64,000 bases of DNA from Dyella amyloliquefaciens. GTDB taxonomy: Bacteria; Pseudomonadota; Gammaproteobacteria; Xanthomonadales; Rhodanobacteraceae. Shown here one piece after another: positions 9,714 to 25,235 of the stretch (its first letter is position 1; each line of letters starts with the position of its first letter). The position numbers and the translations under genes were made by a program. The notes beneath the pieces are model-generated. The model made no database searches and was not told where the DNA came from. It saw only the letters and a list, made by a program, of their open reading frames with translations. The stretch spans positions 62,001 to 126,000 of the forward strand of contig NZ_SAYT01000008.1 of assembly GCF_004296575.1 (NCBI RefSeq). The letters run 5' to 3'.

Positions 9714-10028
9714 ATGAATGATGCGCTGATCGCCAACCTGCGCGCGCAATGCGGTGGTCCGCGTGACGGTGCGCTGCTGCGCTTCTCGCTGGGCAATGCA
9801 CTGCTCACCGCTGGGGATGCCACGGCCGCCGCCGGCGAGCTGAGGCATGCCGTGGGCTTTGACCCGAGCTATTCGGCCGCGTGGAAACTGCTGGGCAAGG
9901 CCTGCCTGGCGCTGGACGACAAGCCCGGCGCCGCCGAAGCCTGGCGGCAGGGCATCGCCGTGGCGCAGGCGCGCGGCGACAAGCAGGCCGAAAAGGAAAT
10001 GACGGTGTTCCTGAAGCGCCTGGGCTGA
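9714..10028 (+). CDS. Small TPR-repeat protein
   Basis: This 104-residue protein contains two or three helical tetratricopeptide-like repeats. LRFSLGNALLTAGDATAAAGELRHAVGFDP and the following WKLLGKACLALDD segment show the usual A-G-Y/F-P spacing (residues about 20-75). There is no signal peptide. The ATG comes only four bases after the stop of the ArnT-like gene, so the two are very likely co-translated. TPR proteins mediate protein contacts, so it may be a scaffold for that transferase. The partner is inferred from position only. Confidence 0.8.
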   Translation: MNDALIANLRAQCGGPRDGALLRFSLGNALLTAGDATAAAGELRHAVGFDPSYSAAWKLLGKACLALDDKPGAAEAWRQGIAVAQARGDKQAEKEMTVFLKRLG

Positions 10029-10039
10029 CGCCAAGGGCG

Positions 10040-10936
10040 CTAGATCACTTCCGGGTGATCGTAGGGACTGGTCCGGTCGTCCGCCGAGTAGCGCTTGTAG
10101 TGCCACTGGTACTGTGCGAACGCTAGCTCGACGCAGTTCTCCACGCCCTGGTTCAAGGCCCGGCACGCCACCGCGAGGTCGGTATCGGCCAGGCCTTCCG
10201 GTGCGGGCAGCAGATGGATGCGATAACCCGCGCCATCCGGAAGGCGTTCGGCAAACGCGAACAGCACGGTGGCGCCGGTGCGCGCCGCCAGCCGCGGCAG
10301 CAGCACCATGGTGAGCGCGTCGCGGCCGAAGAATGGTGCGAATTCACCTTCGCCGGCACGCGGCTTCTGGTCAGGCAGGATGCCTACGGTGCCACCGGCG
10401 GCCAGCCGCTTGTACAGCGTACGCACACCGGCCCCCTCGGCGCGCACCTGCTCGGGCGCCAATGCGCCGCGCACCTTGCGCAGCAAACCCTCCACCGCGG
10501 CGATGCGCGGCGGGCGATAGAGGATGGCCATCGGCGTCTTGCGGCACAGCCAGTAGTTGAGCAGCTCCCAGCAACCCAGATGCGGCGCGGCGATGATCAC
10601 ACCCTTGCCCGCGGCCAGTGCCGCGTCGAACAGCGCCTCGCCGCGCACTTCGCGCACCAGGTCCAGGGCACGCTCGGCATCGCGGCCCCAGATGCCGGCG
10701 ATCTCGGTGGCCGACTTGCCGCTTTCCTCCATCACGGTGCGCAGCAGCGCCGCATGCGCCGCTTCGTCGAGTCCGCGTCGGACGATGCGCAGGTTGACCG
10801 AGGTGTTGTGTGCGGTGCGGCTGCGCCGCCACAACGAGAAGCGGCCAATGGCGGCGCCCAAGCGGTGCAGCGCACGCAGCGGCAGCTTTCCTAACAGGCG
10901 CAGGAAGAGATAGAGGATGGTGATGTCGAATCGCAT
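10040..10936 (-). CDS. Lipid A biosynthesis acyltransferase, LpxL/HtrB family
   Basis: This 298-residue inner-membrane-associated protein begins with a hydrophobic segment (residues 5-25) and holds the HX4E acyltransferase signature in IIAAPHLGCWE near residues 116-127. It also has GILPDQKPRAGEGEFAPFFG, the conserved DQ region, and a C-terminal QYQWHYKR block typical of LpxL/LpxM. The family transfers a secondary acyl chain from acyl-ACP to Kdo2-lipid IVA. Convergent with the TPR gene, it closes the envelope cluster. The sequence does not show whether it is the laurate or the myristate transferase. Confidence 0.88.
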   Translation of the reverse strand: MRFDITILYLFLRLLGKLPLRALHRLGAAIGRFSLWRRSRTAHNTSVNLRIVRRGLDEAAHAALLRTVMEESGKSATEIAGIWGRDAERALDLVREVRGEALFDAALAAGKGVIIAAPHLGCWELLNYWLCRKTPMAILYRPPRIAAVEGLLRKVRGALAPEQVRAEGAGVRTLYKRLAAGGTVGILPDQKPRAGEGEFAPFFGRDALTMVLLPRLAARTGATVLFAFAERLPDGAGYRIHLLPAPEGLADTDLAVACRALNQGVENCVELAFAQYQWHYKRYSADDRTSPYDHPEVI

Positions 10937-11073
10937 GAGCGCCGCAGTGTAACCGGCCGACGCATCGGTTCACGGGTCAACCACGCAACACCTGTTCTCG
11001 TTCCTCCGGCACGGGCTACCGTCAGTGGTAGCCAGGCCCTAAGCTTCCGCCCATCCCAGCCGTTACCTCTTCC

Positions 11074-11514
11074 ATGATCGCCCTGATTCAGCGCGTCCTG
11101 TCTGCCCGTGTGGATGTCGACAACGAAACCGTGGGAGCCATCGGTCCCGGCCTGCTGGCGCTCGTCGCCGTGCAACCCGGTGACGACGAGCCGCGCACGA
11201 AACGCATGCTCGAACGCCTGCTGGGTTACCGCGTCTTCGCCGACGAGCAGGGCCGCATGAACCGTTCATTGGTCGACACCGGTGGTGAGCTGCTCCTGGT
11301 CAGCCAGTTCACCCTGGCCGCCGACACCCGTTCGGGCATGCGCCCCAGCTTCACCAGCGCAGCCACGCCCGACGAAGGCCGGCGTTGGTTCGAACGACTG
11401 GTGGAACTGGCGCGCGCGGCGCACCCCAGGGTGGAAATCGGCCGCTTCGGCGCCCATATGAAGGTGCAGCTGGTGAACGACGGGCCAGTCACTTTCTGGC
11501 TGGAGACGCCATGA
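11074..11514 (+). CDS. dtd: D-aminoacyl-tRNA deacylase (DTD)
   Basis: This 146-residue protein is full length for DTD. It starts [13 protein letters not shown] and has the two motifs that make the active-site cleft across the dimer interface: SQFTLAADT (around residue 78) and NDGPVTF near residue 137. The enzyme removes D-amino acids and glycine mischarged on tRNA by proofreading in the cytoplasm. It lies between the acyltransferase and rpoD and appears to be a single-gene unit. The assignment rests on motif and length agreement. Confidence 0.96.
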
Positions 11515-11622
11515 CCGTCACCACCCAAGGCACATGTCGTCCCTTTTCGAAAAAATCCCCGAAAGATGCCGATTTGGCGCGATTTTTGCGTATCGCCGCC
11601 ACCACTTTTCTTACTTGAAAAC

Positions 11623-11651
11623 TGGTCAAAAAAGCATCACATGGGTATACT
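11623..11651 (+). promoter_or_regulatory. Likely sigma-70 promoter of rpoD
   Basis: TGGTCA at 11623-11628 (four of six to the -35 consensus) and TATACT at 11646-11651 (five of six to the -10 consensus) are separated by 17 bases. Transcription would begin about 22 bases before the rpoD ATG. The surrounding 11550-11660 stretch is AT-rich compared with its flanks. Seen by eye; no start-site data. Confidence 0.6.
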
Positions 11652-11680
11652 GATCGGTTCCTGCATACGCGGCGGTAGGT

Positions 11681-13540
<1,860 letters not shown>

Positions 13541-13566
13541 GCACGGCGCTTAAGCAAGTACACGAA

Positions 13567-13590
13567 GTCCCGCGAAAGCGGGGCTTTTTG
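13567..13590 (+). terminator. Rho-independent terminator of rpoD
   Basis: The stem CCCGC/GCGGG closes on a GAAA tetraloop and is followed by CTTTTTG. It begins 27 bases after the rpoD stop. Geometry is classic, and no later gene on this strand needs read-through. Confidence 0.88.
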
Positions 13591-13613
13591 TTTGGGGCGA
13601 CAACTTTCTGCTG

Positions 13614-13733
13614 CTGTAGGAGCGCACCCAGTGCGCGATAGGCGTATCGACCTGCGGTTAGTCTTCTGTGGCGACAACCGAGCAGCAGCCTGTCCGGGCG
13701 GTCCGCGATCGCGCACTGGGTGCGCTCCTACAG
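13614..13733. repeat. REP doublet (REPIN-like) 1
   Basis: Two inverted arms, CTGTAGGAGCGCACCCAGTG and its mirror ending GGGTGCGCTCCTACAG, flank about 80 bases. Each arm also folds on itself (GCGCAC-CCA-GTGCGC). The same design occurs at 15940, 30175 and 31413, always between genes. In related bacteria such doublets are moved by a RAYT transposase, which is not in this window. Confidence 0.85.
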
Positions 13734-13748
13734 AGAGCTGAGACCGCA

Positions 13749-14120
13749 CTATCCCATGTCGTAGAAAAACTGCTCCGAGACGATCTTGTCGTCCTTGACG
13801 TGATAGACACACACCTCGGCCATGGTCATACGGCCGTACTCCTTCATCGTCACATCCATGGTCATGGTCACGCTGAACCAGTTCCCGGCAATGAGCGGTT
13901 CGCTCACCTCCAGGCCGTGCATCTCCGCCACGCTGGCCTGGAAGCGCTTGCCTTTCTCCAGGATCGCGTCGAGGCCTTTCACGTTACCCAGCGGACCATT
14001 CGCCGCCGCTTCGGGTTCGATGCTGACCGCGTCCTTCGCATACAGCTCGTGCTGCGCTTCCTCGAACTGGCCATGGCGACACATGGCGATCAGGCGCTTG
14101 GCGACGGCTTCGGTACTCAT
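13749..14120 (-). CDS. NTF2-like/SnoaL-fold protein
   Basis: This 123-residue protein of the cone-shaped NTF2 fold starts MSTEAVAKRLIAMCR and ends with the common KDDKIVSEQFFYDMG strand. The family includes steroid isomerase-like enzymes and many uncharacterised small proteins; no catalytic set is evident here. The start at 14120 is preferred over an in-frame codon 14 residues earlier because GGAG lies eight bases upstream. It follows a REP doublet and precedes the S10 peptidase on the same strand. The substrate is unknown. Confidence 0.75.
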   Translation of the reverse strand: MSTEAVAKRLIAMCRHGQFEEAQHELYAKDAVSIEPEAAANGPLGNVKGLDAILEKGKRFQASVAEMHGLEVSEPLIAGNWFSVTMTMDVTMKEYGRMTMAEVCVYHVKDDKIVSEQFFYDMG

Positions 14121-14216
14121 GGCGACAACTCCGGCAAAGTGGTTTGCCGAGGCTAGCGCCACGCCCGGAATCCGGGCGTGAAGGCGCGGCGGCGGTCGGC
14201 CGCCGCGCCAACGAGG

Positions 14217-15821
14217 TCAGTGCTTGCCGACGTTGTCGGTTTCGCCGATGAAACGCGCCACGTTGTCATGCAGCTGCTTCAGCGAATCCTCGTGCGCGTA
14301 GACCATGTGGCCCGACGGGTACCAGGCGTACGAGATGTTCTTCTGCAGGTTCGCCGGGATCGGCATGTGATGCATCTCGTAGTCGGCCGCGAAGTACGGC
14401 GTGGCGAGATCGTAGTAGCCGCCATGCAGCGACACGCGCAGGTTCGGATTGGTCTTCATCGCCGTGGCGAGGTCGCCCATCACGTTGGTGGACTGCTGCA
14501 GCGCTTCGGTCGCGCCCGGTGCCTTGTGCGAGAACTCCCAGTGGTCGATGTCGGCGAACAGGCGGTAGCTCTGGCCATCGCCGAACTTGAGGTCGCGGCG
14601 CACGTAGTCGTTGAATGCGGCGACGTAAGCCGAGCTGATCGACGAGGACTGCGGATCGTATTCGGACGCCTTGCTCAACGGATCGAGCGACGGGCCGGAG
14701 AAACGGGTGTCCAGACGGCCGGTGGTGATATCACCGTCGGCCTGCAGCTCATGCTCGAACATGCCGCCGTCGACGCGCAGGTTGGCCTTCATCAGATAAC
14801 TCACCGGCAGGCCGGTGTACTGGTGCAGCCGCTGCGCCACGGCCTGCTTGCGGGCATCATCCAGGCGCGAGCCCGCCATCAGGGCGGAGGCATAGTCGGT
14901 CAGTGCAAACTGCTCCACCTCGCGCAGGAACGGCTCCAGCGCCGCCGGCTGCTGCGGCAGCTTGTGGTGGTAGTAGGCCGTGGCCGCATAGGTGGGCAGG
15001 CCCACCACATACGGAAGATCGACGCCCGGGTTGTTCGCCGCGCCGTCGATGCTGGTATCGAAGTTGAGGATCTGCGAAAGCAGGATCACGCCGTTCAGGT
15101 CGACGCTGTCCTCGTTCTCCAGGATGTTCGCCACGACCGCCGAACGCGTGGTGCCGTAGCTTTCGCCGAACAGATACTTTGGCGAGTTCCAGCGGTTGTA
15201 CTTGGAGAGGAACTGCGTGATGAACTGCGCGAAGGCATGGCCGTCGCCGTCCACGCCGTAGATCTGCTTCTTGCGATCCTTCATCTGCTCATCGCGCTTG
15301 CCCTTGTCCTGCTCGTCGGCGAGCAAGCGGCTGAAGCCCGCACCGGGCGCGTCGATGAAGACGAGGTCGGAGGCATCGAGCAGGCTGTAGTCATTGTTGA
15401 CCAGCCCGTAGGGCGCAGCAGGCGTATGCGAATCGTCGCTGGTCACCACGCGCTTGGGACCGAAGGCACCCATGTGCAGCCACACCGTGGCCGACCCCGG
15501 GCCGCCGTTGTAGATGAAGGTGATCGGCCGCTTGCCCGGCTCCACGCCCTTCTTGAAGTAGGCCGCGTAGAACATGCTGACCTGCGGCTCGTTCTCCTTG
15601 TCGCCGGTGCCGTGCAGCACCAGGGTGCCGGCCACCGCCTTGTAGTCGATACTCTTGCCCTCGACCTTCACCGTGCCCGACGTTTCCGACGACTGCGGCT
15701 TGAGCAGCGCGGCCTCGGGCTTGTCGTCCGGCTTGGCGTCCTTGTCCTGCTTGTCGGCGGCGTAAGCGCCCGTGCCGAGGGTGAGCGCGGCCAGGGCGAT
15801 GGCGAGGGGGAGCTTGCGCAT
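14217..15821 (-). CDS. Secreted serine carboxypeptidase-like S10 peptidase
   Basis: This 534-residue protein has a clear signal peptide (MRKLPLAIALAALTLGTGAYA, cleavage after AYA). The alpha/beta-hydrolase fold shows NGGPGS (residues 105-110, oxyanion side), the nucleophile elbow GESYGT with Ser221, and a late SGHMVY histidine with DLATP as the probable aspartate region near 450-500. S10 enzymes trim C-terminal residues from peptides at acidic pH, and bacterial homologs are periplasmic or exported. A lysine/aspartate-rich linker follows the signal peptide. It is probably a single gene; a REP doublet lies upstream. Confidence 0.9.
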   Translation of the reverse strand: MRKLPLAIALAALTLGTGAYAADKQDKDAKPDDKPEAALLKPQSSETSGTVKVEGKSIDYKAVAGTLVLHGTGDKENEPQVSMFYAAYFKKGVEPGKRPITFIYNGGPGSATVWLHMGAFGPKRVVTSDDSHTPAAPYGLVNNDYSLLDASDLVFIDAPGAGFSRLLADEQDKGKRDEQMKDRKKQIYGVDGDGHAFAQFITQFLSKYNRWNSPKYLFGESYGTTRSAVVANILENEDSVDLNGVILLSQILNFDTSIDGAANNPGVDLPYVVGLPTYAATAYYHHKLPQQPAALEPFLREVEQFALTDYASALMAGSRLDDARKQAVAQRLHQYTGLPVSYLMKANLRVDGGMFEHELQADGDITTGRLDTRFSGPSLDPLSKASEYDPQSSSISSAYVAAFNDYVRRDLKFGDGQSYRLFADIDHWEFSHKAPGATEALQQSTNVMGDLATAMKTNPNLRVSLHGGYYDLATPYFAADYEMHHMPIPANLQKNISYAWYPSGHMVYAHEDSLKQLHDNVARFIGETDNVGKH

Positions 15822-15939
15822 GGAGGGTCGAACCTTGGGAGGGCGCGCGAAGCGCGAGACCCCCAGATTAGGGAGCGAGGGGGAGGGTTTTCATACCCCA
15901 GAAGTCATTGGGTGACCGGGGCGCCTACCTTTTGGGGGG

Positions 15940-16020
15940 TGTAGGAGCGCACCCGGTGCGCGATTCCTACGGGGCGGCATACCGCCACCACGCGATCGCG
16001 CACTGGGTGCGCTCCTACAG
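15940..16020. repeat. REP doublet (REPIN-like) 2
   Basis: The arms TGTAGGAGCGCACCCGGTGC and CACTGGGTGCGCTCCTACAG are inverted around a short spacer of about 35 bases. It lies upstream of the S10 peptidase gene in the 15822-16347 gene-free stretch. The rest of that stretch holds only the EamA remnant at 16082-16185. Confidence 0.85.
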
Positions 16021-16081
16021 AAGAGGACCGACTGTTTGGCTTGCGGCGCGGGGCGACGGCAAAGGCGTCAGCGCCTCAGCA

Positions 16082-16185
16082 TCATCCCCAGGCGATCGAG
16101 CCAATCGCCCCCAACGCCAACCCGAGCCCGACACATTCACACCGCTCAACCGCTCGCGGAACGCCGGCGCGAACATCTCCGTGCA
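16082..16185 (-). pseudogene. Remnant of an EamA-type transporter 3' end
   Basis: Read on the minus strand this fragment gives FAPAFRERLSGVNVSG in one frame and then LGLALGAIGSIAWG followed by TGA in a second frame. It matches the C-terminus of the intact EamA gene at 18365 (FRERLSVGNAAGVLLAL...IAWG, stop) with the same number of residues and a single one-base shift between frames. Nothing recognisable of the gene survives upstream of it. It is therefore a decayed paralog or duplicated end. Intact and broken ends bracket the radical SAM patch. Confidence 0.6.
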
Positions 16186-16347
16186 GCGACTCCGCATGGC
16201 CTACGCCATGAGCCGCAGGCTAGTGAGAAGAAGCACTTCCTCCCGAGCAGAACGCCGAACGTCACTGCAGGATGCGCCAGGCCTCGCGCCTGGCGACGCA
16301 TCAATGGCCAACTTTTGCGGAAGGCAGTAGCACCAACCACTTTCAGG

Positions 16348-17565
16348 TCAGGCTTCGAACGCCAGCTCGTTCAATGCGAGCTCGTTGCTCCGCCGCGTCC
16401 GTTCGTCGATTTCATGCAGATCCATGTAGTTCGACAGGTACTGCCGAATGCGGGTGTACAACGCCTTGTTCCTGCTGCAGTAGATGGTCGGATTGTTGAA
16501 TTTCCGCTGCTTGGAGTAGCGCGTTATGAGTTCGCCGCCACCGCAATAGCCCAGCCACTCGCATTTGGCGCAGGTCTCTGGCGGCGTCGACACCGTGCGC
16601 CGCAGGTCCATCCAGAAGGGCTTGGAATAGAACTCCTTCAAGGAGGACGTCGCAACGTTACATCCCGTGTGACGATATTCCTCGCTGATGGACGGCAACG
16701 AATCATCAGGCGATACATCGCCGTTACTGCGGATGGTAATGGTCTCGATCAGGTCGACGATGTAGTTGATACGCATGTCGACGCCAAAGTCCGTCAGGAA
16801 CGGTGCAAACACGTTCTTCATGGAACGGATGTTGATCTTCGGGTTGTCATCCTGCAGCCAGCACTCGAGAAGCTCCAGCGAAAAATTCTCGATGAAGTCA
16901 GTCATCTCGGGCGAATAGTTCTCCCAGCTATCCTTGGGGAGCATGAAGTCAAATTTCTGCAGGCCGAGGTCATGGACGATATGCGTGTAAATCTCCCTGG
17001 CTGAGGTGCCAGGAAGAATGACCGCCAACGCGCCCGGCTCACCGATGAGACCGTCTTCATGGCTCTTCTGCAGCAGCGATATCGCCTTGACGATGCGGTC
17101 GTAGCTGCCACGCCTCTTTTTGTCGTACCTGACCGAGTCGTTGACGTGCTTAGGCCCATCGATACTTATCCCGACGCTGATGTTCAGCTCGGAAAACAGC
17201 TTGATCCACTCTTCGTCCAGCAGTATCCCGTTGGTTTGCACTCCCATCTGTAGTTCGGCGTGCGGCGCAATGGTCCGCATCAGGGTTTCCGCAATTTCCC
17301 TGAACCGCTTTTTTCCGACCATCAACGGCTCGCCACCATGGAGAGCCACGGAAACGGTGGGGATACTGAGCTCACGTGCTCCTTCGGCGAGAAACTTCCC
17401 CGCACGCTCCGCCGTTTCAACGGACATGCGCGCCGGATTGTCCTTATGGCTTTCATCGCCATTAAAGAAGAAATAGCAGTAGGGACAATCGAGATTGCAT
17501 ACTTCCGACATCTTGAAGCTCACAAATAGCTTCCTGCTCTCCATTCGTGTGGTCATCAAGCGCAT
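16348..17565 (-). CDS. Radical SAM/SPASM peptide maturase (cyclophane-forming, XyeB-like)
   Basis: This 405-residue cytoplasmic enzyme has a radical SAM core with the cluster-binding CNLDCPYC (CX3CX2C, residues about 23-30) followed by YFFFNGDES. It then has LHGGEPLMVGKKRF and ISIDGPKHVND as in RiPP maturases. The C-terminal SPASM region holds further cysteines, including TCAKCEWLGYCGGG and YCSRN, for auxiliary Fe-S clusters. The FFxGD and HGGEPLM..KKRF features resemble XyeB-type enzymes that link an aromatic ring to a nearby beta-carbon; this is a family resemblance recalled, not tested. The ATG at 17565 is chosen because GGAG lies six bases upstream. The GC content is clearly below the neighbouring genes. 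The precursor-like peptide at 17698 lies directly upstream on the same strand. Confidence 0.85.
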   Translation of the reverse strand: MRLMTTRMESRKLFVSFKMSEVCNLDCPYCYFFFNGDESHKDNPARMSVETAERAGKFLAEGARELSIPTVSVALHGGEPLMVGKKRFREIAETLMRTIAPHAELQMGVQTNGILLDEEWIKLFSELNISVGISIDGPKHVNDSVRYDKKRRGSYDRIVKAISLLQKSHEDGLIGEPGALAVILPGTSAREIYTHIVHDLGLQKFDFMLPKDSWENYSPEMTDFIENFSLELLECWLQDDNPKINIRSMKNVFAPFLTDFGVDMRINYIVDLIETITIRSNGDVSPDDSLPSISEEYRHTGCNVATSSLKEFYSKPFWMDLRRTVSTPPETCAKCEWLGYCGGGELITRYSKQRKFNNPTIYCSRNKALYTRIRQYLSNYMDLHEIDERTRRSNELALNELAFEA

Positions 17566-17602
17566 GGCTATCTCCAGACTCAGCAACGTGCGAAGTCAGA
17601 AC

Positions 17603-17627
17603 GGGAGCCGACACCCGGTCGGCTCCC
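17603..17627 (-). promoter_or_regulatory. Strong hairpin between precursor and maturase genes
   Basis: A perfect 10-base stem GGGAGCCGAC/GTCGGCTCCC closes on a 5-base loop, in the 132 bases between the peptide gene and the radical SAM gene. There is no T-run after it, so it is more likely an RNA-stabilising or partial-termination element than a full terminator. This layout would let the peptide be made in excess over the enzyme. Confidence 0.6.
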
Positions 17628-17697
17628 GAAGTTGGACGCATTGACCTCCGCGCATGCGTGGACAGCTGCCCGGCAGGCCTATTGAGCAGCAGTGGCT

Positions 17698-17865
17698 TTA
17701 GAAAATGCTGAACCAGGTGCTGTACTTCGCCAGATCGCCCGCGGTTTCGTTCGAGTGGGAGATCACCAGCTGACTCATTTCCTTCGGCTTGTCGTTTTCG
17801 CTGCGACCAAACCCGCAGGATGCGCTGACTTCTAGGGCTTCAGCCGAACTCTCGTTGTAGTCCAT
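17698..17865 (-). CDS. Short peptide, probable RiPP precursor for the adjacent radical SAM enzyme
   Basis: This 55-residue reading frame starts at ATG 17865 with AGGA nine bases upstream and ends at TAA 17698. The N-terminal part is acidic and leader-like (MDYNESSAEALEVSA), then comes CGFGRSENDKPKEMSQL, and the C-terminus is the aromatic-rich AKYSTWFSIF, ending in phenylalanine at the very last codon. WFS and YST both fit the aromatic-X-X pattern used by three-residue cyclophane-forming maturases, and the end also recalls FxSxx-COOH peptides with Trp in place of Phe. There is no double-glycine or obvious protease site, and no transporter or protease gene nearby. It was found by translating the gap; the function is inferred from position and composition. 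Confidence 0.72.
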   Translation of the reverse strand: MDYNESSAEALEVSASCGFGRSENDKPKEMSQLVISHSNETAGDLAKYSTWFSIF

Positions 17866-17903
17866 AGCAGTAAATCCTTATGAAGTAATGGATGCGTAAA
17901 CAT

Positions 17904-17959
17904 CAAAAACCCAGGACATTCAGCTTGCGGAATCAGCCCCTGGAGTCGAGTGTCCTGGG
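17904..17959 (-). terminator. Terminator or attenuator just upstream of the precursor gene
   Basis: On the minus strand CCCAGGACA and TGTCCTGGG form a 9-base stem around a 32-base loop, followed at once by TTTTTG. It ends only 38 bases before the precursor ATG, leaving little room for a separate promoter. It may end the transcript of the small frames upstream, or act as an attenuator for the peptide gene. Confidence 0.65.
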
Positions 17960-18042
17960 CTGCTTGGCCGTACTGTGCGTGCCGCACAATGAACTAGAAG
18001 AACTTGCAACGGTCACGACTGACTCACGACCAGCGTTGGTTT

Positions 18043-18303
18043 CTAACAGAGGATTTTTGAGCACGCAATGAAGTTGTGGTTGTAGTCCTCGCCCTTCACA
18101 TTGCTGACCGACTCGACGTCGTCACGATGTGCGTGAAGCGCGAATGTATAGCCGCAAATTCATTCGCTCATATTCACAGTTGTCATGGCTGCTAAGCCGC
18201 TGCAGTTGGTGATATTTCCACTGACGTGAGCGTGAGCCACTGTGAACTTGCGAACCTGCGGCGTTAACGGCGACGCACTCTTAGCAAGATTCGCAAGTTT
18301 CAC
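18043..18303 (-). pseudogene. Small reading frame interrupted by one TGA, possibly decayed peptide gene
   Basis: From GTG 18303 the frame runs 47 codons to TGA at 18160-18162, then stays open for another 38 codons to TAG 18043. The first part reads from MKLANLAKSASPLTPQV to FTVAHAHVSGNITNCSG and on to TTVNMSE; the second contains YTFALHAHRDDVESVSNV and DYNHNFIACSKILC. The two halves share a T(V/F)A...HAH pattern, so they could be diverged copies or one broken gene. The GTG lacks a convincing ribosome binding site. I do not recognise the protein. The whole 17866-18364 interval is otherwise AT-richer noncoding DNA with the terminator at 17904. Confidence 0.35.
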
Positions 18304-18364
18304 GAGCAAGGCCAAAGATCACCATCGCCAATGCTTCAGATGCGACGTGGATGGCCTTGGCATG

Positions 18365-19219
18365 TCATCCCCAAGCAATCATCGCGATCGAAATCAGGGC
18401 GAGCAGTACACCCGCAGCGTTACCCACGCTGAGCCGCTCACGGAACGCCACCGTGCCCACCACGGCGCCCAGCGCCACCACGCCGAGGTTCATGCTGGCG
18501 AATACCAGCGACGGGTGGTCGGGCAGTGCCTGATGGCCGCGCACGTAGAACACGATGTTGCCGAAGTTGGCCAGGCCCAGCAGCAGGCCGGCGACGGCGT
18601 CGCGCAACGTGAAGAAGGTGCGGTCGTGCCAGCGGCGCCATAGCAGCAGGGCGAGGGACACCACGAAAGCGAGCGCGAACATGGCTTGCAGCGACGCGGC
18701 AAATGGCGTGCCGGCACGCGCCACGTGCTTGAACAGGATGTCGATGAGGCCGAAGCCGATGAACACCACCAGCGGCCACAGCCAGCTGCGCACTTCGTCT
18801 GCGCCGCGCGCATCGACCTTCCACACCATGCACAGCAAGGCGAGCAGTCCGACGGCGATGCCCACTCCCTTGTACGCGTTCAAGGTTTCGCCGAACAACA
18901 GGAAGGCGGCCAACAGCGAAATCAGCAGTGACAACCGTTGTGCCGCGTCCGTGCGCACGATGCCCGCGCTGCGCACGGAGGCCGCCAGTGCGAGGAAGAT
19001 CAAGGGCAACAGCAAGCCAAGGCCGACGAAGCCCAGCCAAGGCGCCTGGGTACTGCGCAGCACGTCCAGTGACGGATGGAACACCATCGCGGTGAGCACG
19101 CTGGTCGCGACGTAGTTCCAGGCGATGGCCTGGCCGACATCCACTTCCAATCGCCGCGCGAGCTTCAGCAGCACCGATACCAGCACGCTGCAGACAACGC
19201 TCATCAACACGTAAATCAT
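18365..19219 (-). CDS. EamA/DMT-superfamily transporter
   Basis: This 284-residue inner-membrane protein has about ten hydrophobic segments in two five-helix halves, as expected for EamA transporters. The first half ends with RLSLLISLLAAFLLFGETLN, and the second has VGTVAFRERLSVGN, the equivalent conserved region. The start MIYVLMSVVCSVL goes straight into the first helix. Family members export amino acids, sugars or other metabolites; the substrate here is unknown. A decayed copy of its last 35 codons lies at 16082-16185. Confidence 0.85.
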   Translation of the reverse strand: MIYVLMSVVCSVLVSVLLKLARRLEVDVGQAIAWNYVATSVLTAMVFHPSLDVLRSTQAPWLGFVGLGLLLPLIFLALAASVRSAGIVRTDAAQRLSLLISLLAAFLLFGETLNAYKGVGIAVGLLALLCMVWKVDARGADEVRSWLWPLVVFIGFGLIDILFKHVARAGTPFAASLQAMFALAFVVSLALLLWRRWHDRTFFTLRDAVAGLLLGLANFGNIVFYVRGHQALPDHPSLVFASMNLGVVALGAVVGTVAFRERLSVGNAAGVLLALISIAMIAWG

Positions 19220-19318
19220 GAAAAATCCTTGTCACAGGCCGTGGCCGGGCGGGCCATGCCTATACACCGGATCGCCTTGCGGGCGTCATCCCGGCAAGGC
19301 GAGCTTCTGGGCTGGGGA

Positions 19319-20308
19319 TCAGCTGCCGTGCGTGAATCGTTCGCGATAACGCGCGGGGCTCAGCTTCAGATGATGACGGAAATGGTGGCGCAACGTATCG
19401 GCGCTGCCGAAGCCGCAGACATCGGCTACGCGCTCCACCGGGAGATCGCTGCCTTCCAGCAGCTCGCGTGCACGGTTGAGCCGCTCGCGGGTCACCCATT
19501 GTTTGGGTGAGCAACCGGTTGCCTCTTCGAAGCGGCGCAGCAACGTGCGCTCGCTCATGCGTGCACGCTCGGCGAGCTCCTGCAGCGGCAGCGGTTGGTC
19601 GAGATGGCGACGCATCCAGTCCAGCAACTTGCCCAGCGTGGCGCCTTGCTCGGGAAGCGGTGACTGGATGAATTGCGCCTGCCCGCCGTCACGATGAGCC
19701 GGCACCACGGCGCGACGCGCCACCGAGTTGGCGACTTCCGGGCCGTAGTCGCGGCGGATCAGGTGCAGCGAAAGATCCAGCGCCGCGGCGGAGCCTGCCG
19801 ACGTGAGCAGATCGCCTTCGTCCACGTAGAGCACGTCGGGTTCGATGCGGATGCGCGGGAAGCGCTCCGCCAGCGCATCGACGTAGCGCCAGTGAGTGGT
19901 GGCACGCCGGCCGTCGAGCAAACCGGTGGCGGCCAGCACGAACACGCCGGAACAGAACGAAAGCAGCCTTGCGCCACGCGCATGCGCCTTGCGCAGGGCA
20001 TCGAGCAGGTCCGCGGGTGGTTCCGCGGCCACTCCGCGCCAGCCGGGGACGATCACCGTCCCCGCATCGGCAAGGCCTTCCAGGCCCGTATCGGCCAGCA
20101 CGCGCATGCCACCCGCGGCACGCATCGGTCCCTGGTCCACCGCACACAGGCCGAAGCGGTACCAGTCCGGCCATTCCGGACGCGGCAAGCCGAACATCTC
20201 CACGGCAATGCCGAACTCGAACGTGCACAGGCCGTCGTACACCAGCACGGCCACGTCGCGATTGGCAGGCCCGGATGGACGCCTGACACGTTTTGGCGAA
20301 TTTTTCAT
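19319..20308 (-). CDS. GlxA-family transcriptional regulator (DJ-1/PfpI plus AraC HTH)
   Basis: This 329-residue regulator has two domains. Residues about 13-175 form a DJ-1/PfpI-like domain with LLSFCSGVFVLAATGLLDG, including the elbow cysteine. Residues about 225-325 form an AraC-type double helix-turn-helix with LAERARMSERTLLRRFEEATG and VADVCGFGSADTLRHHFR. The family senses small ligands and activates divergent or adjacent genes. The start MKNSPKRVRR is used; four residues more would be possible from 20320. It is divergent from the rhodanese gene with an inverted repeat between them, so that gene is its likely target. Confidence 0.9.
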   Translation of the reverse strand: MKNSPKRVRRPSGPANRDVAVLVYDGLCTFEFGIAVEMFGLPRPEWPDWYRFGLCAVDQGPMRAAGGMRVLADTGLEGLADAGTVIVPGWRGVAAEPPADLLDALRKAHARGARLLSFCSGVFVLAATGLLDGRRATTHWRYVDALAERFPRIRIEPDVLYVDEGDLLTSAGSAAALDLSLHLIRRDYGPEVANSVARRAVVPAHRDGGQAQFIQSPLPEQGATLGKLLDWMRRHLDQPLPLQELAERARMSERTLLRRFEEATGCSPKQWVTRERLNRARELLEGSDLPVERVADVCGFGSADTLRHHFRHHLKLSPARYRERFTHGS

Positions 20309-20314
20309 GATGCA

Positions 20315-20328
20315 TGGCATTCTTGCCA
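20315..20328. promoter_or_regulatory. Inverted repeat in the GlxA regulator/rhodanese intergenic region
   Basis: TGGCA-TTCT-TGCCA is a perfect 5-base inverted repeat in the 78-base gap between two divergent genes, right at the regulator start. It is a plausible operator for the AraC-type protein. Only the symmetry is seen. Confidence 0.4.
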
Positions 20329-20386
20329 ATGTCGGGCACGGGCGCCAGTGCCGATACTGGCTCCGTCCTTCACCACGGAGCCCGCC

Positions 20387-20779
20387 ATGAGCAGTGTCGT
20401 CCAGCGTTTCCCCGCCGCCGCCAGCACCGATGCCCTGACGCATTTCCACGCCCGCCTGGGCTTCGAAACCGACTGTGCCGACGTCCATTACGCAACGAAC
20501 CACGAAGCGAAGGATTTCGTGCTGCTGGACGTGCGCACGCCCACGCTTTACGCCGCCGGCCATGTGCCGGGCGCCATCAACATGCCCACGCGCACGATCA
20601 GCGAGCAACGGCTGGCCGACTATCCGACCGACACCTTGTTCGTCGTGTATTGCGCAGGTCCGCATTGCAACGGCGCCAACAAGGCCGCCGTGAAGCTGGC
20701 GCAGCTGGGACGACCGGTGAAGGAGATGATCGGCGGCCTCACCGGCTGGATGGACGAGGGCTTTGGCCTGGAACGCTGA
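20387..20779 (+). CDS. Rhodanese-like sulfurtransferase domain protein
   Basis: This 130-residue single-domain rhodanese has FVLLDVRTPTLYAAGHVPGAINMP as the N-terminal signature and an active-site loop VVYCAGPHCNGANKAA with Cys89 as the likely persulfide carrier and a second cysteine four residues on. The domain moves sulfane sulfur to thiols or cyanide. It has a GG-W-M-DEGF end as usual. It is divergent from the GlxA-type regulator and overlaps closely with the acetyltransferase that follows. The start ATG 20387 follows CCGCC without a strong ribosome binding site. Confidence 0.9.
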   Translation: MSSVVQRFPAAASTDALTHFHARLGFETDCADVHYATNHEAKDFVLLDVRTPTLYAAGHVPGAINMPTRTISEQRLADYPTDTLFVVYCAGPHCNGANKAAVKLAQLGRPVKEMIGGLTGWMDEGFGLER

Positions 20780-20780
20780 G

Positions 20781-21242
20781 GTGCAAAACCGCTTCGCCGT
20801 ACGACGCGCCAGCGGTGAGGATGCACCCGTCCTGCTGGCGCTGGGTGCCGAACATGCGGCCTTCGAACGCCTTCCGCACGGGGCGGGCAAACGTGGCGCA
20901 GCGCTGGCAAGCGCGCTTGAGGGTGATCCGCCGCGGCTGCATGCCTGGATCGCCTTTGTCGATGCCGACAGCGTGGGCTATGCCAGCGCCACCGTGGATT
21001 TCTCAACGCTCGACGGCACGACCTATCTGCACATGGACTGCCTGTACGTTCGCGAGCGTTGGCGAGGACATCGTATCGGCCTTGAACTTTGGAGCACCGT
21101 GCGTGCCTTCGCGAAGACCCGGGGCTGCAGCGCGATGCAATGGCAGACCCCGAGCTGGAACGTGGAGGCGGCACGTTTCTACCGCCGGCTAGGCGCCAAC
21201 GAGACCGCCAAGCTGCGCTATGGCCTGTCGCTGATGGACTGA
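20781..21242 (+). CDS. GNAT-family N-acetyltransferase
   Basis: This protein of about 153 residues contains the GNAT core: MDCLYVRERWRGHRIGLELW holds the acetyl-CoA loop R-x-x-G-x-G/I-type pattern, and WNVEAARFYRRLGA is the conserved motif B end. GTG 20781 lies one base after the rhodanese stop; an in-frame TTG at 20763 would overlap that gene. It is likely co-transcribed with the rhodanese. The acceptor (small amine, peptide or antibiotic) is not predictable. Confidence 0.82.
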   Translation: MQNRFAVRRASGEDAPVLLALGAEHAAFERLPHGAGKRGAALASALEGDPPRLHAWIAFVDADSVGYASATVDFSTLDGTTYLHMDCLYVRERWRGHRIGLELWSTVRAFAKTRGCSAMQWQTPSWNVEAARFYRRLGANETAKLRYGLSLMD

Positions 21243-21305
21243 CGCCGCGGCGTCGGGGGTGCCGGGCGATACGATCACGGTACCCACCACGCGGCAGGAG
21301 GTTTC

Positions 21306-21611
21306 ATGCTGGAACTTCGTCCCACCTGCGAACACTGCAACAAGGCCCTGCCACCGGCTTCCACCGAGGCGATGATCTGCTCGTTCGAATGCACGTTCTG
21401 CCGCGATTGCGTGGCGTTGCTGCAGGACGTATGCCCCAACTGCGGCGGCGGCTTCGCACCGCGCCCCATCCGTCCTATCCATGCGTGGAAAGCGGGCGCC
21501 TCGCTGAGCAATCACCCGGCGACCCGGGAGGTCACGCACAAGCCTGTCGTATGGGCGGATCACGCCGCCATCGTCGCAGCACTTGGCGGCAGGCCACCGG
21601 AGCAGCGCTGA
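21306..21611 (+). CDS. DUF1272 zinc-ribbon-like small protein
   Basis: This 101-residue protein starts MLELRPTCEHCNKALPP and has cysteine pairs CEHC, FECTFCRDC and CPNC followed by GGGFAPRPIRP, which is the DUF1272 pattern. The cysteines could bind zinc. Family function is unknown. GGAGG is present just before the ATG. The C-terminal 40 residues extend beyond the usual domain. Confidence 0.88.
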   Translation: MLELRPTCEHCNKALPPASTEAMICSFECTFCRDCVALLQDVCPNCGGGFAPRPIRPIHAWKAGASLSNHPATREVTHKPVVWADHAAIVAALGGRPPEQR

Positions 21612-21716
21612 GCCCGATTTTCCCGGAGCCAAACGGCGCGACCACGGCGCATTGACGCGCGGGGTCCTAATGATGGTCCTCGCCTCGCACGGCAGGCGGC
21701 CACTGCATTCCGGAGC

Positions 21717-23894
21717 ATGCCCACGCACGAGCCACGTTCATTGAACCCCGCACGACCGATCCCGCTGGGCGGGGCGGCGGTGCTGTTCCTTGCCATTTTC
21801 GTGCTGGATGCGGTTTCGCTGCTGGTTGCCTTCCACGGCGGCGCGATGGTCTCGGTGTGGACTGCCAACGGCCTCGCAGCCGGCGTACTGGCATCCGTGC
21901 CGCGACGCCACTGGCCTTTGCTCGTTGCCACCGTCTTTGCCGCGCTCGCGACGGGACAGTACGTCGCGCTAGGTGCACTGCGCGCCGATCACCTGGTGCT
22001 CATACTTGCGGATCTCGTGGAAATCCTCGTCGTATCGGCCGTAATCCGTCGATACCAGCCGGTCATCAGTGGGGAAACAAGTGGCTATCTGCGGCTCGGC
22101 CGCGTGGCAATCATCGCCACCCTTGCCGGTTGCATCGCATCCACCTTGCTGGCCACCGGTGCGCAGCAGATGGTGAACGGAGGCGCGCTCATCGTCTCTG
22201 CCCAGCAATGGTTTCGCGCACACCTGCTCGGCATGGTGATCGTTGGCATGCTCACGCTGGTGGCGTTTCGCGAACGAGGCCGCATGCTCGGTCCGCCGGG
22301 CAAGCGCCTGCGCATGCTGCGTGACGTGGTGGTGCTGTTCGCCATCACGCTTGGCGTGTTCCTGCAGGCGCGCCATCCGCTGTTGTTCGTCCTCTTCGCG
22401 CCACTGCTTTACCTGATCTTCCAGTACCGCTTTCCAGGCCTGGTGATCGGCGTAGCAATCGTGACATTGGTGGCGAATGTGTCCACGACCCTGGGCACGG
22501 GACCGTTCGCGCTGATTCCCACGACCGATCGCACGGAGCCGGCCCTGCTGGCGCAGATCTTTCTTGGCATCGTCTGCCTGGTGACGGTACCCGTGGCGCT
22601 GGCACTCGCCGACAGGCAACGGCTCACCACGCAAGTGGCCGAGAGTGAAAACCTGTATCGCCTGCTGGCGGACTATGCCGGCGACCTGGTCGTGCGCATT
22701 GCCGACGATGGCACCCGACGCTACGTATCGCCCTCGGTCAAGGACATGCTGGGATGGACGCCGGAGGAGTTCGCCACGCAACGGGACGCATTGATCCATC
22801 CCGACGACCAGGAGCGCGTCCGCGTGGTACTCAAGCGACTCCGCGAGACAGGTAACGAGCCTTTCGTGCGTTTTAGGGTGCGCAATCGCGTGGGAGGCCA
22901 TCAGTGGATCGAAGCCCTGGGCAAGCTCGCGCCCAGCCCGGATCATCCAGGCGAGGTCGAAGTCGTCTACGCGGGACGCGACGTCACCGAGCGGGTACTT
23001 GCCGAAGAGGCCCTGGCCGACAGTGAGAAACGCCTTCGCACCATCACGGACAACGTACCGGCCGTCATCGCGCACATCGATACCGAACAGCGCTACACCT
23101 TCATCAATGCCTATGCCTCGGAAGTGATCGGTCGCGAGGCTTTGTTGAATATCGGTCATACCGTCGAGCAGATGCGGGGGCCGGTCGTCTACGCGCTGCT
23201 CAAGCCTCACATCGAACTGGCCCTGCGCGGAAAGGCCACCACCTTCGAATACGATGTGCTCGCGGGCGAGCAGCACCGCTATTTCCAGGCCACGTATCTT
23301 CCCGCCATCACGGCCGACGGGGAAACCAGCGGCCTTTACATGCTTACCACGGAGATCACCCGCATCAAGCTGGCCGAGCAGAAGCTGGATTTCCTCGCCC
23401 ACCACGATGCGCTGACGGGTATCGCCAATCGATTGTCGTTCCGCGAACGCATCAAGGCCTCCATCCAGCACGCCAGCATCACTCACGGGCCCCTGCTTCT
23501 ACTGATGATCGATGTGGATCACTTCAAGCAGATCAACGATACCTACGGCCATGCGGCCGGCGACCTCGCGCTCGTCGAGGTCGCAGCCCGGCTGAGGGCG
23601 AATGTCCGCAAGACCGATCTGCTTGCGCGCCTGGGCGGCGACGAGTTCATCGTCCTGTGCCGCGACGTCGCCGATGTCGCCACGGCGCGGCAACTGGCAC
23701 AGAAGTTCATCGATGCGATGCAGTCATCCGTATCCGTCGGCACGGCCAGCCTGAAGGTGACGCTGAGCGTCGGCGGGGCACTGTGCCGCGATATTCCCTC
23801 ATCGGACGCACTGATCCAGCGCGCCGACGAGGCGCTTTACCAGGCCAAGGACGGGGGACGCGCCGGCTACCGCATCGTCACCGATTGCGACTGA
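21717..23894 (+). CDS. MASE1-PAS-PAS-GGDEF diguanylate cyclase
   Basis: This 725-residue inner-membrane signalling protein has an N-terminal MASE1-type region with about eight hydrophobic segments (residues 20-300), including SVWTANGLAAG. Two PAS domains follow (about 310-425 and 435-550). The C-terminal cyclase has HHDALTGIANR and the active-site GGDEF at about 640-644. RKTD five residues before GGDEF forms an inhibitory RxxD site, so product feedback is expected. It makes c-di-GMP from GTP, which in these bacteria promotes adhesion and biofilm. There is no EAL domain. The signal sensed by MASE1/PAS is unknown. The next gene is convergent with a 9-base gap. Confidence 0.92.
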   Translation: MPTHEPRSLNPARPIPLGGAAVLFLAIFVLDAVSLLVAFHGGAMVSVWTANGLAAGVLASVPRRHWPLLVATVFAALATGQYVALGALRADHLVLILADLVEILVVSAVIRRYQPVISGETSGYLRLGRVAIIATLAGCIASTLLATGAQQMVNGGALIVSAQQWFRAHLLGMVIVGMLTLVAFRERGRMLGPPGKRLRMLRDVVVLFAITLGVFLQARHPLLFVLFAPLLYLIFQYRFPGLVIGVAIVTLVANVSTTLGTGPFALIPTTDRTEPALLAQIFLGIVCLVTVPVALALADRQRLTTQVAESENLYRLLADYAGDLVVRIADDGTRRYVSPSVKDMLGWTPEEFATQRDALIHPDDQERVRVVLKRLRETGNEPFVRFRVRNRVGGHQWIEALGKLAPSPDHPGEVEVVYAGRDVTERVLAEEALADSEKRLRTITDNVPAVIAHIDTEQRYTFINAYASEVIGREALLNIGHTVEQMRGPVVYALLKPHIELALRGKATTFEYDVLAGEQHRYFQATYLPAITADGETSGLYMLTTEITRIKLAEQKLDFLAHHDALTGIANRLSFRERIKASIQHASITHGPLLLLMIDVDHFKQINDTYGHAAGDLALVEVAARLRANVRKTDLLARLGGDEFIVLCRDVADVATARQLAQKFIDAMQSSVSVGTASLKVTLSVGGALCRDIPSSDALIQRADEALYQAKDGGRAGYRIVTDCD

Positions 23895-23903
23895 AGGGGT
23901 GGG

Positions 23904-25235
23904 CTACTCGCGTTCCGCCAGCGCCTTGTTCACGCGCAACGCCAACAGCGTGCACAGCACGCCGGACAGAAGATAGGCGCTGACCGCCACCAGTCCGAAG
24001 CGCATCGACAAGCCCAGCGCCACCAGCGGGGCGAAAGCTGCACCGATCAACCATGCGAAGTCGGTGGTGAACGCCGCGCCCGTATAGCGCAGCTGGATCT
24101 CGAAGTTCGAGGTCACGCTGCCGGCCGACTGGCCGTAGGACAGGCCCAGGCCACCGAAGCCCAGGATGATGAAGGCGTCCTGGCCCAACTTGCCGCCGCC
24201 CAGCAGCCAGGGCGTGATCAGCGCAAAGATCGCGATCAGCGCCGCCATCAGCCCCAGCGTGGTGCGTCGGCCGATGCGATCGGCCAGCAGGCCCGAGATG
24301 ATCATGCCCAGGATGCAGGCGAAGGCGCCGATGATCTCCGCCACCAGCACCGAATCCGCGGGCTGCATGGCCCCCAGCACGATCCACGACAGCGGGAAAA
24401 TCGTCACCAGGTGGAACAGCGCATAGCTGGCCAACGCCGCGAATGCGCCGACGAAGATGTTGTAGCCCTGCGTGCGCAGGATCGTCAGGCTGCCGACGGG
24501 CTGTAGCTCCCTTTCCTCCATGGCGACCGTGTACTCCTCGGTCACCACCAGGCGCAGGCGCGCGAACAGCGCGACCACATTGATGGCAAACGCGACGAAG
24601 AAGGGATAGCGCCAGCCCCAGTCGATGAAGTCCTCGTCCGACAGGTTCGAGTGCAGGAACAGGAACAAGGCGGCAGCCATCAGGAAACCGATCGGTGCCG
24701 AAAGCTGGCCCAGCATGGCGTACCAGCCGCGCTTGTCCGGCGGCGCATTGAGCGCGAGCAGCGAGGGCAGGCCATCCCACGAGCCGCCCAGCGCGATGCC
24801 CTGCAGGATGCGGAACAGCACCAGCAGGCCGATCGCCCAGTCGCCGATCTCCTTGTAGCTCGGCAGGAACGCCATGCCCGCGGTGGCGCTGCCCAGCAGG
24901 AACAACGCGATGGTGAGCTTGGTGCCACGGCTCCAGCGCCGCTGGAAATCCATGAAGAGGGCGGTACCGAACGGGCGCGCGATGAAGGCCAGTGAAAAGA
25001 CCGTGAAGGCATACAGCATGCCGTGCAAGGTATCGGCAAAGGAAAACAGCACCTGCGGAAACACCAGCGCGCAGGAAATACCGAACACGAAGAAATCGAA
25101 ATGCTCCGAGGTACGTCCGATGATGACGCCGACCGCGATCTCGCCGGGCGCCACTCGCGCATGGGCATGCAGGCGATGGATGTCCTCCGCCGAGGTACCC
25201 GTCCTGCCGTCATGTTCAGGGAACGTGCTTGACAT
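23904..25235 (-). CDS. MFS transporter, metabolite:H+ symporter-like
   Basis: This 443-residue protein has twelve expected membrane segments. Typical MHS features are TSEHFDFFVFGI in helix 1, FIARPFGTALFMDF between helices 2 and 3, LQGIALGGSWDG, and ADRIGRRTTL in the central loop. Such transporters import organic acids, betaines or sugars with protons. The start MSSTFPEHDG is used because an upstream extension is proline-rich and non-conserved in look. It is divergent from cyoA with about 150 bases between. The substrate is unknown. Confidence 0.88.
   Translation of the reverse strand: MSSTFPEHDGRTGTSAEDIHRLHAHARVAPGEIAVGVIIGRTSEHFDFFVFGISCALVFPQVLFSFADTLHGMLYAFTVFSLAFIARPFGTALFMDFQRRWSRGTKLTIALFLLGSATAGMAFLPSYKEIGDWAIGLLVLFRILQGIALGGSWDGLPSLLALNAPPDKRGWYAMLGQLSAPIGFLMAAALFLFLHSNLSDEDFIDWGWRYPFFVAFAINVVALFARLRLVVTEEYTVAMEERELQPVGSLTILRTQGYNIFVGAFAALASYALFHLVTIFPLSWIVLGAMQPADSVLVAEIIGAFACILGMIISGLLADRIGRRTTLGLMAALIAIFALITPWLLGGGKLGQDAFIILGFGGLGLSYGQSAGSVTSNFEIQLRYTGAAFTTDFAWLIGAAFAPLVALGLSMRFGLVAVSAYLLSGVLCTLLALRVNKALAERE

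Follow-up and report, generated by a model that had tools for sequence, protein, structure and literature searches.

The window analysed here, a stretch of 64,000 nucleotides of the Dyella amyloliquefaciens genome, holds a 55-codon frame upstream of a radical SAM/SPASM enzyme gene, which raises the question of whether the two genes form a peptide-modifying system and, if so, what they would make. An earlier note had proposed a minimal precursor and maturase locus in a low-GC patch. Both frames lie on the minus strand where that note had placed them, and the 55-codon precursor (translation, MDYNESSAEALEVSASCGFGRSENDKPKEMSQLVISHSNETAGDLAKYSTWFSIF) is genuine and recurs in two further species, each time next to a maturase of 90% identity. 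The low-GC patch was also found: 500-base windows between 16250 and 18499 have a GC of 0.51 to 0.57, and the other windows of 10000 to 24000 have 0.59 to 0.71. The precursor gene was said to lie directly upstream of the maturase gene; it does lie upstream, but a gap of 132 nt (17566-17697) separates the two. This gap is counted from the ATG at 17565, which follows GGAGA, is the start common to all three orthologs described below and is likely the true start of a 405-residue enzyme; the longest frame has 412 codons (16348-17586) and opens at TTG 17586. Taken as a whole, the original observation is sound, and its interpretation was partly right. The features are collected in Table 1.

Table 1. 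Features of the two-gene locus, in coordinates of the window.
Feature	Coordinates	Strand	Evidence or remark
Two-gene cassette (block shared with G047)	16347..17960	minus	70-80% DNA identity in two pieces
Radical SAM/SPASM maturase gene, 405 aa from conserved ATG	16348..17565	minus	Family models, cysteine alignment, tree, fold search
Perfect 11-bp hairpin between precursor and maturase	17602..17628	minus	Kept in 3 of 3 orthologs
Precursor peptide gene, 55 aa	17698..17865	minus	Orthologs, alignment, profile search, codon-change counts
Hairpin ahead of the precursor gene; five T follow it in the window	17910..17959	minus	Start of the block shared with G047

The earlier note had made its proposal depend on a homologous peptide beside homologous maturases in other genomes. 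When this was sought in 233 whole genomes of the family, such peptides were found in the congener G047 and in Dyella acidiphila (G067), a member of the Rhodanobacteraceae. Eight of the 233 genomes gave a maturase match at E ≤ 1e-40, and three of these, the window's own, G047 and D. acidiphila, hold orthologs at 90 to 100% identity. Six relatives came out of a scan of genome contigs with one genome per species, the one close relative being that of D. acidiphila (91% in the best segment). When a profile of the three precursors was searched against the same 233 genomes, 18 genomes matched at E ≤ 0.5, of which the same three lay at E ≤ 3.3e-29 and the other 15 at E of at least 0.05. High-scoring precursor and maturase co-occur in all three family genomes that hold either, and the gene pair is present in 3 of 233. 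Samples at the level of the class (369 genomes), the order (398) and the phylum (398), which overlap with the family set, yielded nothing orthologous besides these three and G1150, a more distant relative considered below. Carriage on mobile elements was also considered and set aside: 28 plasmid records match the maturase, the best at only 35.6% identity; viral contigs, scanned with two short patterns only, gave no relative; and 10 phage records match, five of which are listed, at 24 to 28% identity, two being annotated as sulfatase maturases and three unannotated.

The limits of the locus can be read from the comparison with G047. The shared block runs from about 17960, just upstream of the precursor, to the maturase stop at 16347 and holds no transporter, protease or immunity gene, and the genes flanking the pair in the window also occur in congeners that lack it. 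From these two observations it follows that the unit consists of two genes without a transporter, protease or immunity gene, as had been claimed. The neighbouring gene, encoding an EamA-type permease (Pfam), was found in 19 of the 20 genomes of the window's genus and adjoins the pair in two of these (the window and G047). In 14 of the remaining 17, an S10 serine carboxypeptidase gene stands next to the permease and there is no pair; for G049, G062 and G050, the last at the end of its contig, no S10 gene was seen in the fetched flank. Nor was one found within the 20 kb surrounding the pair in G047 (L064), a stretch that continues to a SnoaL-type gene. A search of the 18.6 kb surrounding the D. 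acidiphila pair recovered no other flanking gene of the window. There, the precursor is preceded at about 1.1 kb by a LuxR-type regulator with an autoinducer-binding domain (L002:4585-5304), and a Mutator transposase fragment separates the two.

Upstream of each of the three ortholog maturases lies a small homologous frame (55, 47 and 56 codons), and Shine-Dalgarno-like sequences were seen by eye ahead of both genes in all three. Alignment of the three precursors revealed a conserved C-terminal block, MSxLVIxHSNETAGDLAxxSTWxSIx, and a recognisably conserved N-terminal part. An internal start at Met30 was thought less likely, as the N-terminal part is conserved and carries the better-placed Shine-Dalgarno-like sequence (by eye). 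In the last 26 codons, the three pairs differ by 0.41, 0.84 and 0.93 synonymous and by 0.11, 0.07 and 0.13 non-synonymous changes per site; purifying selection acts on these residues. Because there are only three orthologs, and the last eight residues are identical between the window and D. acidiphila, this conservation rests on few independent events. Searched against NCBIfam, the precursor gave a chance-level match only (L37e, E 0.16).

To which kind of enzyme the maturase belongs was addressed with family models, trees and a fold search. Its CxxxCxxC motif and SPASM cysteines (C339, C342, C348 and C370) align with those of XyeB, YhhB and FxsB relatives, and in Pfam it scores 58 bits for Radical_SAM and 15.7 bits for SPASM, the latter under the 21.5 cut-off. 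The earlier note had assigned it to the cyclophane-forming maturases, and in line with this its three best NCBIfam matches are XyeB (260 bits), YhhB (NF041707; 242 bits) and FxsB (TIGR04269; 228 bits), all below the respective cut-offs of 450, 445 and 370. On the XyeB model (TIGR04496), the three orthologs score 260, 255 and 258 bits, whereas the Sodalis and Xenorhabdus XyeB proteins reach 460 and 559. The comparison with named RiPP families that the note had called for thus yielded nearest families without membership in any of them, GrrM/OscB (TIGR04261; 101 bits against 310) included. Darobactin and dynobactin are made by radical SAM/SPASM maturases (DarE and DynA) encoded beside precursors with aromatic residues, an arrangement that the window pair shares. 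A link to these compounds was not supported, membership being rejected on the scores for DarE (84 of 650 bits) and DynA (128 of 450), and nothing in the analysed data was seen to connect the peptide with BamA.

In maturase trees of 29 and 31 sequences, a YhhB/FxsB/HaaB side is split from a XyeB side at 100/100; on the latter side, outside XyeB itself, the three orthologs group together at 100/100. The AlphaFold model of the maturase, built from four sequences, has a mean pLDDT of 66, with 124 of 405 residues below 50, including 322-365 in the SPASM part. In a fold search, its top solved relative was ChlB with bound precursor (E ~1e-21, TM 0.74-0.81), which also came first in a phmmer search with the maturase. 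ChlB is named a multiple cyclophane synthase in the reference list of PMC12636437. The features by which triceptide maturases are recognised are present, namely radical SAM and SPASM-type cysteines and an adjoining short precursor with a conserved aromatic-x-x site. Together, these sequence comparisons support a three-residue-cyclophane-type maturase on the XyeB side.

The family contains other maturases of this general type. Three XyeB-like enzymes (L010, L011 and L012, in family members G123, G105 and G060) also lie under every family cut-off and are separate unnamed maturase lineages. Upstream of the first two are Gly-Gly peptides (VAGGQVPVW... and VVGGGYSQW...), and in G060 there is a peptide with ADWFEQF. 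A further maturase group of the family (L013, L014 and L015), branching apart from XyeB, is accompanied by neighbouring Gly-Gly peptides that carry GWVKVGP or WGRVTVGP close to their end. The passages on Dyella in PMC9576775 deal with lanthipeptides.

Which residues of the precursor might be joined? The earlier note had named WFS and YST as candidate sites. The first stands, since W51 and S53 are invariant and the precursors all end in W-x-S-x-x-COOH; the second is no conserved site, because its Tyr (Tyr48) is Cys in G047. Enzymes of this kind join an aromatic ring to the beta-carbon two residues on, as described in PMC11002830, where XncB links Trp to Arg or Asn and MscB links Phe to Ser. Trp-to-Ser is absent from the pairs listed in the passages of that paper drawn on here, although each half of such a link has a precedent in these two enzymes. 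The most likely product would be a W51-S53 cyclophane.

The G1150 locus provides an outside point of comparison. Three matches at E ≤ 1e-75 were obtained in the phylum sample of 398 genomes: the window's own, G1133 (E 2e-77) and G1150 (E 1e-125), the last from a different family of the same phylum. The G1150 maturase shows 44.5% identity over 382 residues and clusters with the three orthologs at 100/99; no second maturase of this type was found at E ≤ 1e-80 among 196 genomes of its order. Its precursor is a 37-residue peptide ending AVAGGAGHSSWNRTGRG, of Gly-Gly type (AGGAGHSSWNR), and the locus also encodes an aKG-HExxH-type hydroxylase (60 bits, cut-off 40), a C39-peptidase ABC transporter and further ABC genes. 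Alignments of the G1150 peptide with the window and D. acidiphila precursors beat 2000 of 2000 shuffles. The alignment with the G047 precursor (P value, 0.0045) is weak by itself, being hardly below the lowest P value of the controls (0.0065 in 27 comparisons of nine other relatives' peptides with the three precursors). AGG of G1150 stands opposite AGD of the window precursor, and Trp opposite Trp, so that W-N-R in G1150 would correspond to W-F-S in the window. C39 proteases cut after double glycine. With AGG opposite AGD, the double glycine appears to be gone from the window lineage, and the transporter with it.

A different reading keeps the same kind of enzyme and assigns it another chemistry or another site: H37-S38-N39, the aromatic residue at 52 with S-I54, several sites at once, or an epimerisation or thioether. 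The H-S-N residues, the aromatic at 52 and the following S-I are conserved in all three precursors, the G1150 peptide too has His-Ser-Ser ahead of its Trp, and cyclophane sites containing His are known for HaaB and YhhB (PMC11002830). In the G1150 alignment, however, H-S-N belongs to the leader part, ahead of AGG/AGD, while Trp falls in the core. A thioether needs a Cys, and no Cys is common to the three precursors; no epimerase family stands among the 25 best of 70 NCBIfam matches to the maturase. We therefore consider such a departure from the W51-S53 cyclophane unlikely.

The history of the locus is open to a second reading, in which a system of FxsA (FxSxx-COOH) or YhhA style never had a Gly-Gly site or a transporter of its own, and its product acts in the cell or leaves through an unlinked exporter. 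The spacing of the W-x-S-x-x-COOH end is that of the FxSxx-COOH family name, and the Vibrio YhhA precursor likewise lacks Gly-Gly; it lies beside yhhB and yhhC, and no transporter is among the genes listed for that 9-kb stretch. Furthermore, a Gly-Gly peptide was seen by eye upstream in 15 of 20 other XyeB-side loci; the other five have no clear one (L012, L028, L029, L100 and L026, the last without any candidate), so Gly-Gly was gained or lost more than once. Against this reading, FxsB/HaaB and YhhB lie across the 100/100 tree split from the window clade, and the nearest relative, G1150, has a Gly-Gly precursor. FxsA membership, prompted by the C-terminal end, was rejected: in none of G000, G047 and G067 did the FxsA model (TIGR04268) hit the precursor at E up to 10, in a search that scored 150 of 215-243 candidates and in which no genome or control passed the cut-off, so that it had no positive control. 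We regard this history as quite doubtful, and the simpler reading, drawn mainly from the one sister locus, is that the window lineage lost Gly-Gly rather than never having had it. Decay of a larger cluster into a remnant with a non-functional peptide gene could be suspected from the missing transporter and hydroxylase genes of the sister, the retention of the pair in just 3 of 233 family genomes and the GC-poor locus with adjoining short repeats, yet it is highly improbable given a maturase dN/dS of 0.04 between the window and G047, scarce non-synonymous change in all three pairs, intact radical SAM and SPASM cysteines and the Shine-Dalgarno-like sequences before both genes.

Signals in the DNA itself were inspected as well. 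In the intergenic hairpin, both partners of one pair differ in D. acidiphila (T-A for C-G), and G047 has one A-C mismatch. Compared with shuffles, the intergenic fold energies of the three orthologs gave z of -1.8 (9 of 200 as good), -6.1 (0 of 200) and -3.6 (1 of 200). That this hairpin raises the precursor over the enzyme level is a guess, three sequences being few. The upstream hairpin gave z of -2.5 in the window and -2.6 in G047, and was no better than shuffles in D. acidiphila (z -0.0). A terminator scan returned two terminator-like sites where 2.1 were expected, neither of them at the intergenic or upstream hairpin, and a promoter scan returned no sigma-70-like site (1.1 expected). Three sub-threshold Rfam matches were taken as chance. 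At 15940-16019 there is a 38-bp imperfect inverted repeat (TGTAGGAGCGCACCCGGTGCGCGATTCC...), pieces of which match several places in the same gap of the congeners G060 and G048; it looks like a REP-type element.

Collectively, these findings make it probable that the window holds a minimal triceptide-type RiPP locus with a W51-S53 cyclophane, descended from a double-glycine, C39-exported system that lost its cleavage site and exporter. On this account, the cell would produce the 55-residue precursor, perhaps at a higher level than the enzyme thanks to the intergenic hairpin, and the maturase would recognise the conserved MSxLVIxHSNETAG region. It would then abstract a hydrogen from the Ser53 side chain and couple the same carbon to the Trp51 indole; the resulting W-F-S cyclophane would span three residues, the first of them fifth from the C-terminus. 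The ancestor would have resembled G1150, with its W-N-R core, and the change from AGG to AGD and the loss of the exporter would have followed, if the direction of change is as supposed. With cleavage site and exporter lost, the product may serve inside the cell, or housekeeping enzymes may trim and export it. A bolder version, which we put forward tentatively and think unlikely as it stands, is that of a domesticated triceptide: an exported lineage abandoned both its double-glycine site and its transporter, and the Trp-Ser cyclophane keeps its leader and acts inside the producer, for which precursor and one enzyme suffice. If so, G1150, with Gly-Gly, hydroxylase and exporter, and the Dyella-type lineage, with none of these, would form a natural before-and-after pair, in which one could ask what a triceptide does when its locus has no exporter. 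The window pair, one peptide and one enzyme, would also offer a test system for a Trp-Ser cyclophane that could hardly be smaller.

Among known systems, the gene pair is a small new lineage of a known kind, set apart by three features: its precursor lacks Gly-Gly and ends in W-x-S-x-x, and its locus encodes no exporter. With FxsA/FxsB (FxSxx-COOH) it shares a candidate aromatic-x-Ser at equal distance from the C-terminus, but has Trp in place of Phe, and the FxsB relatives lie on the far side of the tree. MscB, the maker of the Phe-Ser link, presumably belongs to FxsB. The XyeA/XyeB systems of Xenorhabdus and Sodalis, on the same side of the tree, likewise have a Trp-containing core and a precursor directly upstream of a radical SAM/SPASM maturase; their maturase is 33% identical, and the window enzyme falls well short of the XyeB cut-off. 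The Xenorhabdus locus (L070) has a Gly-Gly precursor and annotated genes for HlyD and a peptidase-domain ABC transporter, whereas the window precursor has no Gly-Gly leader and the shared block no C39-type ABC transporter. G1150 combines the most similar maturase with a precursor that can be aligned, AG and Trp in register, and differs in its Gly-Gly site, W-N-R core, hydroxylase, C39 ABC transporter and additional ABC genes.
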